Below are positions 49,894 to 53,481 of a stretch of DNA of 64,000 bases, piece by piece. The stretch's first letter is position 1. Every line of letters begins with the position of its first letter. The DNA comes from Desulfolutivibrio sulfodismutans DSM 3696 (GTDB taxonomy: Bacteria; Desulfobacterota; Desulfovibrionia; Desulfovibrionales; Desulfovibrionaceae). A program made the position numbers and the translations under genes. The stretch is from positions 744,001 through 808,000 of the forward strand of contig NZ_CP045504.1 of the NCBI RefSeq assembly GCF_013376455.1, written 5' to 3'. The notes beneath the pieces are model-generated. The model saw nothing but the letters and a program-made list of their open reading frames with translations, had not been told where the DNA came from and did not search any database.

Positions 49894-51279
49894 ATGCAAT
49901 ACACTATTCATTTGTTCGGCTTAAACCACAAGACGGCGGACGTGGAGGTGCGAGAGGCCTTTGCCCTGGCCGACGGCGGCATTCTGGAGCGGGCTCTGGT
50001 TTCCCGGGAAAGCCCCATCCGCGAGGCCCTGGTCCTGTCCACCTGCAACCGGGTGGAGATATTGGTGTCCGGGGCTCCCGAGGCCGAAGTGGCCTCCCTG
50101 GTCTTGTCGCGCTGGGCCGGACACTGCAACCGGGATGCAGCGCGGCTTTCCCCGCACATTTACGCCCACGCCGGGACCGAAGCCGTGGAGCATGTCTTCC
50201 GGGTGGCCTCGGGCCTGGACTCCATGGTCCTTGGCGAGCCCCAGATCCTGGGCCAGATGAAGGACGCCTACCGTCGGGCCGTGGGCAACGGCTCCACGGG
50301 GGTGATCCTCAACCGGCTGTTGCACAAGGCCTTCTCCACGGCCAAAAAGGTCCGCACGGCCACGGGCATCGGGGCCAGCGCCGTGTCCATCAGCTATGCC
50401 GCCGTGGAGCTGGCCAAACGCATCTTCGGGGAGACGGCCGGGAAAAAGGCCATGCTCATCGGGGCCGGGGAAATGGCCGAATTGGCCGCCACCCACCTTC
50501 TGACCGCGGGCATCTCCCACCTGTACGTGGCCAACCGGACCTTTTCCCGGGCCGTCGAGTTGGCCGAACGCTTCCATGGCACGGCCATCCCCTTCGAAAA
50601 CCTGGCCGAACATCTGCCCGAGGCGGACATCGTCATCAGCTCCACCGGCGCGCCCCAGGCCATCATCCGGGCCCGGGACATCAAGGACGTGCTCAAAAAA
50701 CGGCGGCAGCGGCCCATGTTTTTCATCGACATCGCCGTGCCCCGGGACATCGACCCCGACGTCAACGGCCTGGACAACGTCTACCTCTACGACATCGACG
50801 ACCTGCGCGAGGTGGTGGAGGAAAACCTGGCCCAGCGCAAGGAAGAGGCCACCCGGGCCGGAGAGATCGTGCGGGAGCAGGTGGAAAGCTTCTCCCACTG
50901 GCTCAAGGCCCTTGACCTGAGTCCCACGATCGTGGATGTTTTGCGCTATGGAGAAGACATCGCCAAAAAGGAATTGTGCAAGACCCTGCGCCGCCTGGGG
51001 CCGGACGTATCGCCCGAGACGGCCAAGGCCCTGGAATGCCTGGCGTTGTCCATAAGCCACAAGATTCTCCATGAGCCCATCGTGTTTCTCAAACGGCGCT
51101 CCAGGGAAAACGCCGGGGAACGATTTCTTGATCTGATCCGCCGGGTGTTCGACCTGGACAAAGAAACTGTCCCCGAAGACGCCCATGGCCGGGGCGCGGA
51201 CGACCCGGCCTGCGGCTGCGAAGACGAAATATCCAACAAAGCGGGTGCGTCATGCGTTCCTACCTCATCGAGGAACTGA
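49894..51279 (+). CDS. hemA: glutamyl-tRNA reductase HemA
   Basis: A 461-residue enzyme making glutamate-1-semialdehyde from glutamyl-tRNA, the first step of C5 tetrapyrrole synthesis. Catalytic Cys51 in LVLSTCNRVEI, GLDSMVLGEPQILGQMKDAY, NADPH-binding AMLIGAGEMAELAA, and DIAVPRDIDP. The C-terminal 40 residues form a poorly conserved tail with CGC. Three bases after hemX. Confidence 0.97.
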   Translation: MQYTIHLFGLNHKTADVEVREAFALADGGILERALVSRESPIREALVLSTCNRVEILVSGAPEAEVASLVLSRWAGHCNRDAARLSPHIYAHAGTEAVEHVFRVASGLDSMVLGEPQILGQMKDAYRRAVGNGSTGVILNRLLHKAFSTAKKVRTATGIGASAVSISYAAVELAKRIFGETAGKKAMLIGAGEMAELAATHLLTAGISHLYVANRTFSRAVELAERFHGTAIPFENLAEHLPEADIVISSTGAPQAIIRARDIKDVLKKRRQRPMFFIDIAVPRDIDPDVNGLDNVYLYDIDDLREVVEENLAQRKEEATRAGEIVREQVESFSHWLKALDLSPTIVDVLRYGEDIAKKELCKTLRRLGPDVSPETAKALECLALSISHKILHEPIVFLKRRSRENAGERFLDLIRRVFDLDKETVPEDAHGRGADDPACGCEDEISNKAGASCVPTSSRN

Positions 51280-51587
51280 CCGAAGACGATATGCACAGCA
51301 TCAAGGCCAGGCTCTTGGAGAAAGGCTTCAAGGGTACCCTGGACGACATCTATTTCATCCCCTTTCCCCAGGAGATGCTCAACGACGAACAGACCGAGCA
51401 TGCGGCCGAATGCGGCCCCTATGTCCTGGTTCTGGAGACGGGGCAGGACTCCATCAAGATGGAGCTTTTGGTGCGGGGCAAGGGTCGGCTGCGGTGTTCC
51501 TGCATCAGCTATTGCACGCCGGAGCAACGCAACCAGATGATCGATTTTCTGGACAACTTCATCCGCGAACTGGACATCCCGGTGTGA
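51252..51587 (+). CDS. small conserved Cys-containing protein
   Basis: A 111-residue soluble acidic protein that starts inside the 3' end of hemA (28-base overlap). It has a segment CSCISYCTPEQRNQMIDFLDNFI with three Cys in seven residues and a hydrophobic beta core (PYVLVLETGQDSIKMELLVRG). I do not recognise the family. The overlap suggests coupling to hemA. Confidence 0.75.
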   Translation: MRSYLIEELTEDDMHSIKARLLEKGFKGTLDDIYFIPFPQEMLNDEQTEHAAECGPYVLVLETGQDSIKMELLVRGKGRLRCSCISYCTPEQRNQMIDFLDNFIRELDIPV

Positions 51588-51624: not shown

Positions 51625-53391
51625 ATGACCCCCACCCTGTCCGCATCGCTTCCGGCCAGGCTCGGCGACCTCTCTCCGGTTCAGGCCAGGCTGTGCCTCG
51701 CGATCCGGGCCTTTCTCCTGGAGCGGGCCCCGGAGGTTTCCGGCGCGTCCGTGGTGGCCGGGGTCTCGGGAGGACCGGACTCCACCGCCCTGCTGGCCAT
51801 CCTGCGTCTTCTGGCCCCAGGCCTGGGCCTGACCCTGACCGTGGCCCACCTGGACCACGGCCTGCGCCCGGAGTCGGCGGATGAGGCCCTGGCCGTGGCC
51901 GCCCTGTGCCGCAGCATCGGCCTGCCCTGCCTGACGGAAAAGGCCGCCCTTCCGGAACCGGGTTCCCCGGGGCTTGAGGCGGCATCCAGAAACGCCCGGT
52001 ACGCCTTTTTCGAGAAGGTCCGGGCCACGGTCGGGGCCGGTTTCATCGCCGTGGGGCATACCCAAAACGATCTGGCCGAGGATTTGCTCCTGCGGCTTGT
52101 GCGCGGTTGCGGCTGGCCGGCCCTGGGCGGCATGCCCGCCTTCGATCCGCGTCGTCGGCTGGTGCGGCCGCTTTTACTCACGCCCCGGGCGCGCCTGACC
52201 GCCTTTCTGGCTGAAATCGGGATCGCGGTCGCCGACGATCCCAGCAACGCCGACCCCGCCTATCGCCGCAACCGCGTCCGACACCGCATCCTGCCCCTTT
52301 TCCTGGCGGAAAATCCGGGCTTTTTGGATGTGGCGGCCCGGTTGTGGCGGCAGGCCGACCTGGACCGGCAGGCCTTCGCCGCCGATCCCATCCTCACAAC
52401 CGGGCCGCAGTACGCCGCAAACGGGGATATCCTGGTGGCCCGGAAAACGCTGGCCGGACTGCCTCCGGCCCGGCGCATCCGGCTTTTCAAGGCGGTCCTG
52501 GACCGGCTCGGCCCGGGCGAGTCCCTGACGGACACGCTTTTTCGGCTGGAGCGGGCTGTTTCGGCCAGACGGGGGGGGGCTACGTTTCAATTTCCAGGGG
52601 GAAAAACCGCCCGGATTTTTACCGCAAACGTTCGCTTTCGCGGCCGGGGCGCATTGACAGGAATTGGCGCTGAAGATAGAAAGGGAGATTGTGAAATTTT
52701 AAACGAGGAGGCCTCGCCCGTGAATATCCTGATTTTCGGACCCAATGGCAGCGGTAAGGGAACCCAGGGTTCCCTGGTGAAAAAGAAATTCAACCAGGCC
52801 CATATCGAATCCGGCGCGATCTTCCGCGAGCACATCGGCGGCGGCACGGAGCTGGGCAAAAAGGCCAAGGCATACATCGACAAGGGCGAACTCGTCCCCG
52901 ACGACATCACCATTCCTATGATCCTATCCACTTTGAAGGATAAGGGCAAGGACGGATGGCTGTTGGACGGCTTTCCGCGCAACATCGTCCAGGCCCAGAA
53001 GCTGTGGGAGGCCCTGCAGGCCGCGGGCATGAAGCTGGACTACGTCATCGAGATCCTTTTGCCCCGCCAGATCGCCAAGGACCGCATCATGGGCCGCCGC
53101 CTGTGCGCCAATGACGCCAACCACCCCAACAACATCTTCATCGACGCCATCAAGCCCAAGGGCGACGAGTGCCGGGTGTGTGGCGGCGCGCTGAAGACCC
53201 GTTCCGACGACCAGGACGAGGACGCCATCAACAAGCGCCACGACATCTACTACGACACCAAGACCGGCACCCTGGCCGCCGCCTATTTCTACAAGGATCT
53301 GGCCGCCAAGGGACAGACCAAATACATCGAGCTCAACGGCGAAGGCAGCATCGACTCCATCAAGGAGACCCTGCTGGCCAAGCTTTCCTAG
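51625..53391 (+). CDS. tilS: tRNA(Ile)-lysidine synthase TilS, frame continuing into adenylate kinase
   Basis: From ATG 51625 the frame runs 588 codons. Residues 1-340 are TilS, which converts the wobble C of tRNA-Ile(CAU) to lysidine: PP-loop VSGGPDST (about 47-54), VAHLDHGLRPES, VGHTQNDLAEDLLLRL, and a C-terminal beta domain with TFQFPGGKTARIF. No stop follows; after about 25 linker residues the same frame enters complete adenylate kinase at 52720. A run of nine G (52571-52579) lies in the TilS part. Adk also has its own promoter and ribosome site, so separate Adk translation is likely, while read-through product may also form. Confidence 0.85.
   Translation: MTPTLSASLPARLGDLSPVQARLCLAIRAFLLERAPEVSGASVVAGVSGGPDSTALLAILRLLAPGLGLTLTVAHLDHGLRPESADEALAVAALCRSIGLPCLTEKAALPEPGSPGLEAASRNARYAFFEKVRATVGAGFIAVGHTQNDLAEDLLLRLVRGCGWPALGGMPAFDPRRRLVRPLLLTPRARLTAFLAEIGIAVADDPSNADPAYRRNRVRHRILPLFLAENPGFLDVAARLWRQADLDRQAFAADPILTTGPQYAANGDILVARKTLAGLPPARRIRLFKAVLDRLGPGESLTDTLFRLERAVSARRGGATFQFPGGKTARIFTANVRFRGRGALTGIGAEDRKGDCEILNEEASPVNILIFGPNGSGKGTQGSLVKKKFNQAHIESGAIFREHIGGGTELGKKAKAYIDKGELVPDDITIPMILSTLKDKGKDGWLLDGFPRNIVQAQKLWEALQAAGMKLDYVIEILLPRQIAKDRIMGRRLCANDANHPNNIFIDAIKPKGDECRVCGGALKTRSDDQDEDAINKRHDIYYDTKTGTLAAAYFYKDLAAKGQTKYIELNGEGSIDSIKETLLAKLS
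52654..52682 (+). promoter_or_regulatory. candidate adk promoter inside the tilS frame
   Basis: TTGACA (52654-52659), 17-base spacer, TAGAAA (52677-52682). Start of transcription about 52689, followed by CGAGGAGG and the GTG of adk at 52720. Confidence 0.6.
52720..53391 (+). CDS. adk: adenylate kinase with metal-binding LID
   Basis: A 223-residue adenylate kinase starting at GTG 52720 with GAGGAGG at good spacing. Walker A GPNGSGKGT (7-15), LLDGFPRN, and a LID domain with Cys129, His135, Cys151 and Cys154. This C-x5-H-x15-C-x2-C pattern and numbering are those of Desulfovibrio gigas Adk, whose site holds zinc, cobalt or iron. It catalyses 2 ADP to ATP + AMP and recycles AMP from sulfate activation. 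The frame is open upstream into tilS. Confidence 0.95.
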   Translation: MNILIFGPNGSGKGTQGSLVKKKFNQAHIESGAIFREHIGGGTELGKKAKAYIDKGELVPDDITIPMILSTLKDKGKDGWLLDGFPRNIVQAQKLWEALQAAGMKLDYVIEILLPRQIAKDRIMGRRLCANDANHPNNIFIDAIKPKGDECRVCGGALKTRSDDQDEDAINKRHDIYYDTKTGTLAAAYFYKDLAAKGQTKYIELNGEGSIDSIKETLLAKLS

Positions 53392-53413: not shown

Positions 53414-53481
53414 AAAGGCCCCGCCAATCCGCCGGGGCCTTTGGTTCTTGCGGACCCCTTTCGGCCACAACCGGAAGGGGT
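53414..53481. terminator. bidirectional terminator(s) between adk and suhB
   Basis: Hairpin AAAGGCCCCG/CGGGGCCTTT (53414-53442), T-run strongest on the minus strand for suhB. A second, imperfect 11-bp stem (53454-53481) is followed on the plus strand by TCGTCATTTTT and could end adk. Confidence 0.85.

Follow-up and report, generated by a model that had tools for sequence, protein, structure and literature searches.

TilS, the tRNA(Ile)-lysidine synthase, makes AMP and adenylate kinase (Adk) uses AMP, and the genes for both, tilS and adk, are presumably essential. TilS is represented by the profile TIGR02432 and the solved chain 3a2k, and the adenylate kinases of the NF011102 / PRK14529 type, with the solved chains 2xb4 and 3l0p, which we take to be from Desulfovibrio gigas, are chains of 223 residues. 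A fusion of TilS to HprT occurs in Listeria and relatives, and there is a class of genes in which an internal start yields a long and a short product. For Desulfovibrio, CRP-like (HcpR) sites are predicted before sat and apsAB (PMC545781) and Rex is reported to repress sat (PMC7531388); the main text of PMC545781 has no occurrence of adk. Proteomics of Solidesulfovibrio fructosivorans is described in PMC10084766. Open-library literature, as judged by title among the papers listed, yielded no account of TilS fused to Adk, and none of the papers listed on the genus nearest to that of our source organism contained the term ‘adenylate kinase’.

In the window (the whole stretch of 64,000 nucleotides of Desulfolutivibrio sulfodismutans DSM 3696 that was analysed), the ORF list and its translation give one open frame of 588 codons (51625-53391, + strand) in which TilS and adenylate kinase are joined with no stop between them. 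An earlier note made from the letters alone had described exactly this, and the frame was confirmed as open throughout, with both profiles matched. On the TilS side, PF01171 matches residues 43-221 (E 1.8e-42), TIGR02432 (lysidine_TilS_N) scores 154.9 bits, above its curated cut-off of 93.6, and chain 3a2k matches residues 27-235, while PF09179, the TilS substrate-binding domain, reaches 16.9 bits for a cut-off of 21. On the Adk side, NF011102 matches residues 366-587 over profile positions 1-222 of 223 (430.8 bits; cut-off 331), and 2xb4 and 3l0p are the nearest solved adenylate kinase chains (phmmer with the Adk part, E 5.9e-117). A search of the source genome (4.44 Mb, 2 contigs) with the fusion returned one full match, the tilS-adk locus itself, and a single weak further match to the TilS part (28%, E 9.6e-9).

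The fused tilS-adk frame is real. At 65% GC, some 38 codons would stay free of stops by chance with a probability near 0.38, so the openness of the frame is by itself little proof. In one unfused relative (G027, locus L116), the adk frame runs through tilS for 645 codons with no stop, yet tilS is read in another frame, and a long open frame alone is thus weak evidence of fusion. The telling point is that tilS itself occupies the adk frame in independent genomes.

The features of the locus are collected in Table 1. Residues closely like those of the 111-aa ORF also precede tilS in loci of the nearest genus. By eye, a good ribosome site is not evident at the start of tilS itself, and a GC-rich inverted repeat directly 3' of adk (53414-53442) is a possible terminator; the terminator scan missed this repeat, its 9-nt loop exceeding the allowed length. 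Of the start signals that the earlier note had assigned to adk, the −35, the ribosome site and the GTG are present, and the −10 is weak: the strict promoter scan, which requires T at the last −10 position, did not list the adk promoter.

Table 1. Coordinates of the features at the tilS-adk locus, as positions in the window.
Feature	Position	Strand	Basis
hemA-type glutamyl-tRNA reductase, upstream, same direction as tilS	49894..51279	+	PF05201, PF01488, PF00745
111-aa ORF between hemA and tilS	51252..51587	+	No Pfam match at E 0.001
TilS part of the fusion, residues 1-340	51625..52644	+	Domain matches; pLDDT mostly 90 or more
Linker codons 341-365; the start signals of adk (promoter, ribosome site) and an operator-like site share this DNA	52645..52719	+	pLDDT <50 at residues 343-362
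adk −35 TTGACA, read as Leu-Thr in the fused frame	52654..52659	+	Sequence; 50-110 nt before adk in 116/153 family loci
adk −10-like TAGAAA, weak, 17 nt past TTGACA; its TAG lies in a frame not read by tilS here	52677..52682	+	
Rex/CRP-like operator candidate TTGTGAAATTTTAAACGA, second half imperfect	52689..52706	+	3 mismatches to TTGTGAANNNNTTCACAA
adk ribosome site GAGGAGG (GGAGG at 52707-52711)	52705..52711	+	
adk, 223 codons from GTG 52720, then stop; residues 366-588 of the fusion	52720..53391	+	NF011102

We examined 154 genomes (110 stretches taken by coordinates, plus loci from earlier genome matches), 153 of which have a recognisable adk P-loop; the family search drew 199 genomes, and the loci examined were among the matches listed. 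We infer that the family is Desulfovibrionaceae and that the genus nearest to that of the source organism includes Solidesulfovibrio magneticus; the source genus and this nearest genus are called g1 and g26 below. The same frame is open in all three g1 genomes, one of which (G002) is a single contig. Among the 14 genomes of g26, nine are fused, four are unfused and one (G180) holds only an adk fragment, so that 9/13 readable genomes are fused, or 12/16 for g1 and g26 together. In the four unfused g26 genomes tilS is out of the adk frame and stops at the TGA inside TTGACA. The comparison with relatives proposed in the earlier note was divided, with the shared frame in 3/3 and 9/13 genomes on one side and a tilS stop inside the promoter in 4/13 on the other. 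Judged by this recurrence, the fused frame is kept in a clade, and it is probably translated.

This agreement also bears on the reading that a sequencing or assembly error, by way of a missed indel, hides the true end of tilS. A run of nine G lies inside tilS at 52571-52579, and single-base differences in length do switch the frame between related genomes; against this, the frame is identical in G001 and in the single-contig G002, nine g26 genomes agree, and a conserved FQFPGGKT stretch lies in frame downstream of the G run. We rejected a slip at the run itself, given the frame common to 3/3 g1 genomes and the conserved stretch in frame past it, and consider an error of any such kind highly improbable.

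A second fused pair was found in g20 (15 genomes found, 11 examined, 2 fused, both incomplete drafts). Its linker is different, with TTGACA 60 nt before adk; in the g1/g26 lineage the distance from TTGACA to the start of adk is 66 nt (22 codons). None of the other genera examined within the family has a fused tilS-adk, and an order-wide search (150 genomes, 60 outside the family) gave, among the matches listed, only G045 and G055 as further candidates, both of which fell. In all, eight long adk frames (G099, G040, G071, G089, G003, G004, G055 and G045) were ruled out as fusions by their sequences, which have a stop between tilS and adk or lack tilS in the frame, with a stop at the adk end. Two fused relatives have peculiarities of their own. 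The draft G173 is truncated on its 5' side, and a second tilS piece lies on another of its contigs (G173:C104:8-958, L124; 53% identical), perhaps contamination, and the TilS part of G096 (L114) contains a long Pro/Ser-rich stretch not seen in the other fused relatives printed.

The position of tilS relative to the adk promoter follows a rule of frame. TTGACA lies 50-110 nt before adk in 116/153 family loci. In 95 of the 153, tilS either continues into adk (14, fused) or has a stop no more than 250 nt from it (81); in the remaining loci tilS is further off (10), outside the stretch (46) or cut by a contig end (2). The 81 stop-bearing loci divide into 69 with TTGACA and 12 without it there. Within these 69, tilS ends at the TGA of TTGACA in 13, at the −10 in 23, at a TGA between the two in one, and before the promoter in 32; the −10 stops, formed by the first three bases of the hexamer, are TAA in 15 cases and TAG in 8. 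The promoter is thus reached by 51 tilS genes in all, of which 37 end within it and 14 are fused. All 14 fused loci have TTGACA and read it in frame as TTG ACA, that is, in the third frame.

When frames were counted from TTGACA in the 116 loci, a stop before adk was present in all 116 for frame 1, in 98 for frame 2 and in 71 for frame 0, the last being open up to adk in 45/116. From these stop counts by frame, the promoter as read in these loci always blocks one frame, mostly blocks a second and often leaves the third free. The fused fraction, 14/51, is near one in three and no more than one frame in three gives, although the genomes are related and the count is no test. The elements of an internal start are largely retained in the fused loci (GGAGG in 13/14, GTG or ATG in 14/14), with a weak −10.

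Our preferred reading, to which we give a probability of about 0.74, is that the fusion arose by frame drift through a shared promoter, the Adk tail being tolerated and ordinary Adk made alongside. Across the family tilS is commonly the gene immediately before adk, and in many cases its 3' end extends into the adk core promoter, where the hexamers supply its stop: one frame meets TGA in TTGACA, a second meets TAA or TAG at the −10. In the g1/g26 lineage, tilS would have drifted into the third frame, where the hexamers offer no stop, and translation would continue into adk. The internal promoter and good ribosome site would then give ordinary Adk in bulk, and the tilS message, from a start with no good ribosome site, would give some TilS-linker-Adk, which apart from the weak match above is the genome's sole TilS match. 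A joint output of fusion and free Adk had already been suggested in the earlier note; it is the natural reading of a missing stop together with adk's own start signals, and both are predicted products, with estimated masses of 60-64 and 25 kDa. Most likely TilS carries the Adk tail as a tolerated passenger, presumably neutral, although persistence of the fusion in 12/16 readable genomes of g1 and g26 could instead reflect weak selection. The new element is the frame rule, by which the promoter stops tilS in two frames and the third frame gives the fusion. An adk promoter that acts as the tilS stop in two of three frames would be a simple route to fusion for neighbouring genes under frame drift.

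For selection on the linker, variability per codon position was computed in the fused g26 genomes. The TilS tail (0.09/0.12/0.23 at positions 1/2/3) and Adk (0.02/0.02/0.11) are coding-like. The 36 nt before TTGACA give 0.30/0.30/0.26, with no codon signature in seven fused g26 genomes of equal length, and protein-level constraint on the junction was not detected in this small set of 12 codons from 7 genomes. Over the 30 nt that begin with TTGACA the values are 0.07/0.21/0.14 in fused and 0.03/0.13/0.05 in unfused genomes, and the last 36 nt before the adk start give 0.009 at each position in nine fused genomes and 0 in four unfused ones. This adk-proximal stretch is as conserved where tilS is not read through it and is thus kept as DNA; the striking peptide DCEKSNMEAVP is no more than a translation of that DNA. 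The part of the linker before TTGACA measures 48 nt in two g1 genomes (G002 being without the motif used), while the fused g26 genomes have 72, 81 or 93 nt there and all four unfused ones 80 nt; an argument from these lengths for frame-keeping was dropped, as there are too few indels. AlphaFold (65-row alignment) predicts two confident domains separated by a disordered linker (pLDDT <50 at 343-362) with a pTM of 0.59, so a fixed domain arrangement is not indicated.

These data weigh on a selected bifunctional enzyme, in which the Adk domain would use the AMP from TilS and link tRNA-Ile lysidinylation to the adenylate pool. The supply of AMP by one domain to the other, the fusion of 12/16 readable genomes in two genera and the g20 pair with its other linker are in keeping with it. 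Four of 13 readable g26 genomes are nevertheless unfused, the linker has no codon signature and is disordered, the pTM is 0.59, 14/51 is no more than one frame in three gives, and in a sulfate reducer the TilS flux is small beside that of APS reductase. We regard such an enzyme as unlikely. The link between tRNA modification and adenylate balance drawn in the earlier note meets the same findings on unfused genomes, linker, predicted structure and fused fraction, and the conserved linker DNA is equally conserved where tilS is unread; a selected link of this kind is not supported, and the fusion is probably a tolerated accident rather than a designed link. Alternatively, no lasting fusion may exist, TilS being separated from Adk through linker proteolysis, frameshifting or termination of messages at the operator. 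The disordered stretch and the operator-like site across the linker would suit separation, against which the scan listed no terminator-like site between the TilS and Adk domains; we think it quite unlikely. Frame drift with a tolerated Adk tail remains our preferred reading.

A tree from TilS and Adk, covering 65 of the 95 loci, requires four changes of the fused state, and the branch uniting g1 and g26 has an SH-aLRT of only 83. One possible history is a gain before g1 and g26 (together with g20, which sits on a long, unsure branch), after which G059 and the S. magneticus group each lost the fused state and G108 regained it; on this tree the fusion was probably lost twice. In G059 the linker before TTGACA is one base shorter than in its neighbour G120 (80 vs 81 nt). 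The changes of state hang on few indels, partly in drafts such as G108 (an assembly of 490 contigs) and G166, with its broken adk frame. In G166 (L118), an unfused draft of the S. magneticus group, the adk match is split over two frames near residue 545, probably by an assembly error, and L013 seems to represent this same genome.

The linker DNA also carries an operator-like site. TTGTNAA occurs 12-60 nt before adk in 69/153 loci, and among the 36 distinct sequences with it, 34 have TTGTGAA as the half site, with a tendency towards TTAACAA in the second half. In the source genome, TTGTGAANNNNTTCACAA at no more than 2 mismatches was found at 15 places, compared to 5 for a reversed control pattern; the site before adk in the window, TTGTGAAATTTTAAACGA, differs from it at three positions and so falls outside the 15. 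The surroundings of seven matches were inspected. Two (3516356 and 3516543 in G000:C1, L265; TTGTTAA...TCACAA) precede ORFs read by eye as aprB and aprA (APS reductase), and two (2932854, 3467732) lie at ORFs that on visual reading resemble ATP synthase genes. A fifth (2934792) immediately precedes rex, whose domain is at 2934852; the other two (297048, 2867848) have no such gene nearby. The operator pattern scan found none around sat in this genome, and a shorter palindrome, GTGAAAAATTTCAC, was seen by eye upstream of sat. Rex control of adk may reasonably be proposed. With no tilS stop before the candidate adk operator, complete TilS would require that RNA polymerase pass it, and a bound Rex-type repressor would truncate tilS messages, leaving them with no stop codon; we hold this to be improbable. 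If true, TilS supply and AUA decoding would depend on the cell's redox state and on its state of sulfate activation.

In this group of sulfate reducers two presumably essential genes share one frame, and the linker of the tilS product would be a translation of the adk start signals (promoter and ribosome site) together with the operator-like site. Gene callers may report only one enzyme here, so that tilS or adk could seem missing in metabolic reconstructions.

Compared to the described systems, the Adk part matches the whole NF011102 / PRK14529 profile of 2xb4 and 3l0p, and differs in that what forms a 223-residue chain there also makes up, in our locus, the C-terminal end of a longer frame. 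The N-terminal domain is that of TilS (TIGR02432; 3a2k), whereas PF09179 is below its cut-off and the frame runs on into Adk. As in the TilS-HprT of Listeria, TilS is fused in frame to a neighbouring purine-related enzyme, with a different partner. The operator candidate shares with those of sat and apsAB in Desulfovibrio (PMC545781, PMC7531388) a TTGTGAA-type half site beside a sulfate-activation promoter, and is imperfect here. With internal-start genes the locus has in common a single frame containing an internal ribosome site and start; here, however, the long product would cover a pair of enzymes with no relation to each other, and some relatives use the internal promoter also as the stop codon of the upstream gene.
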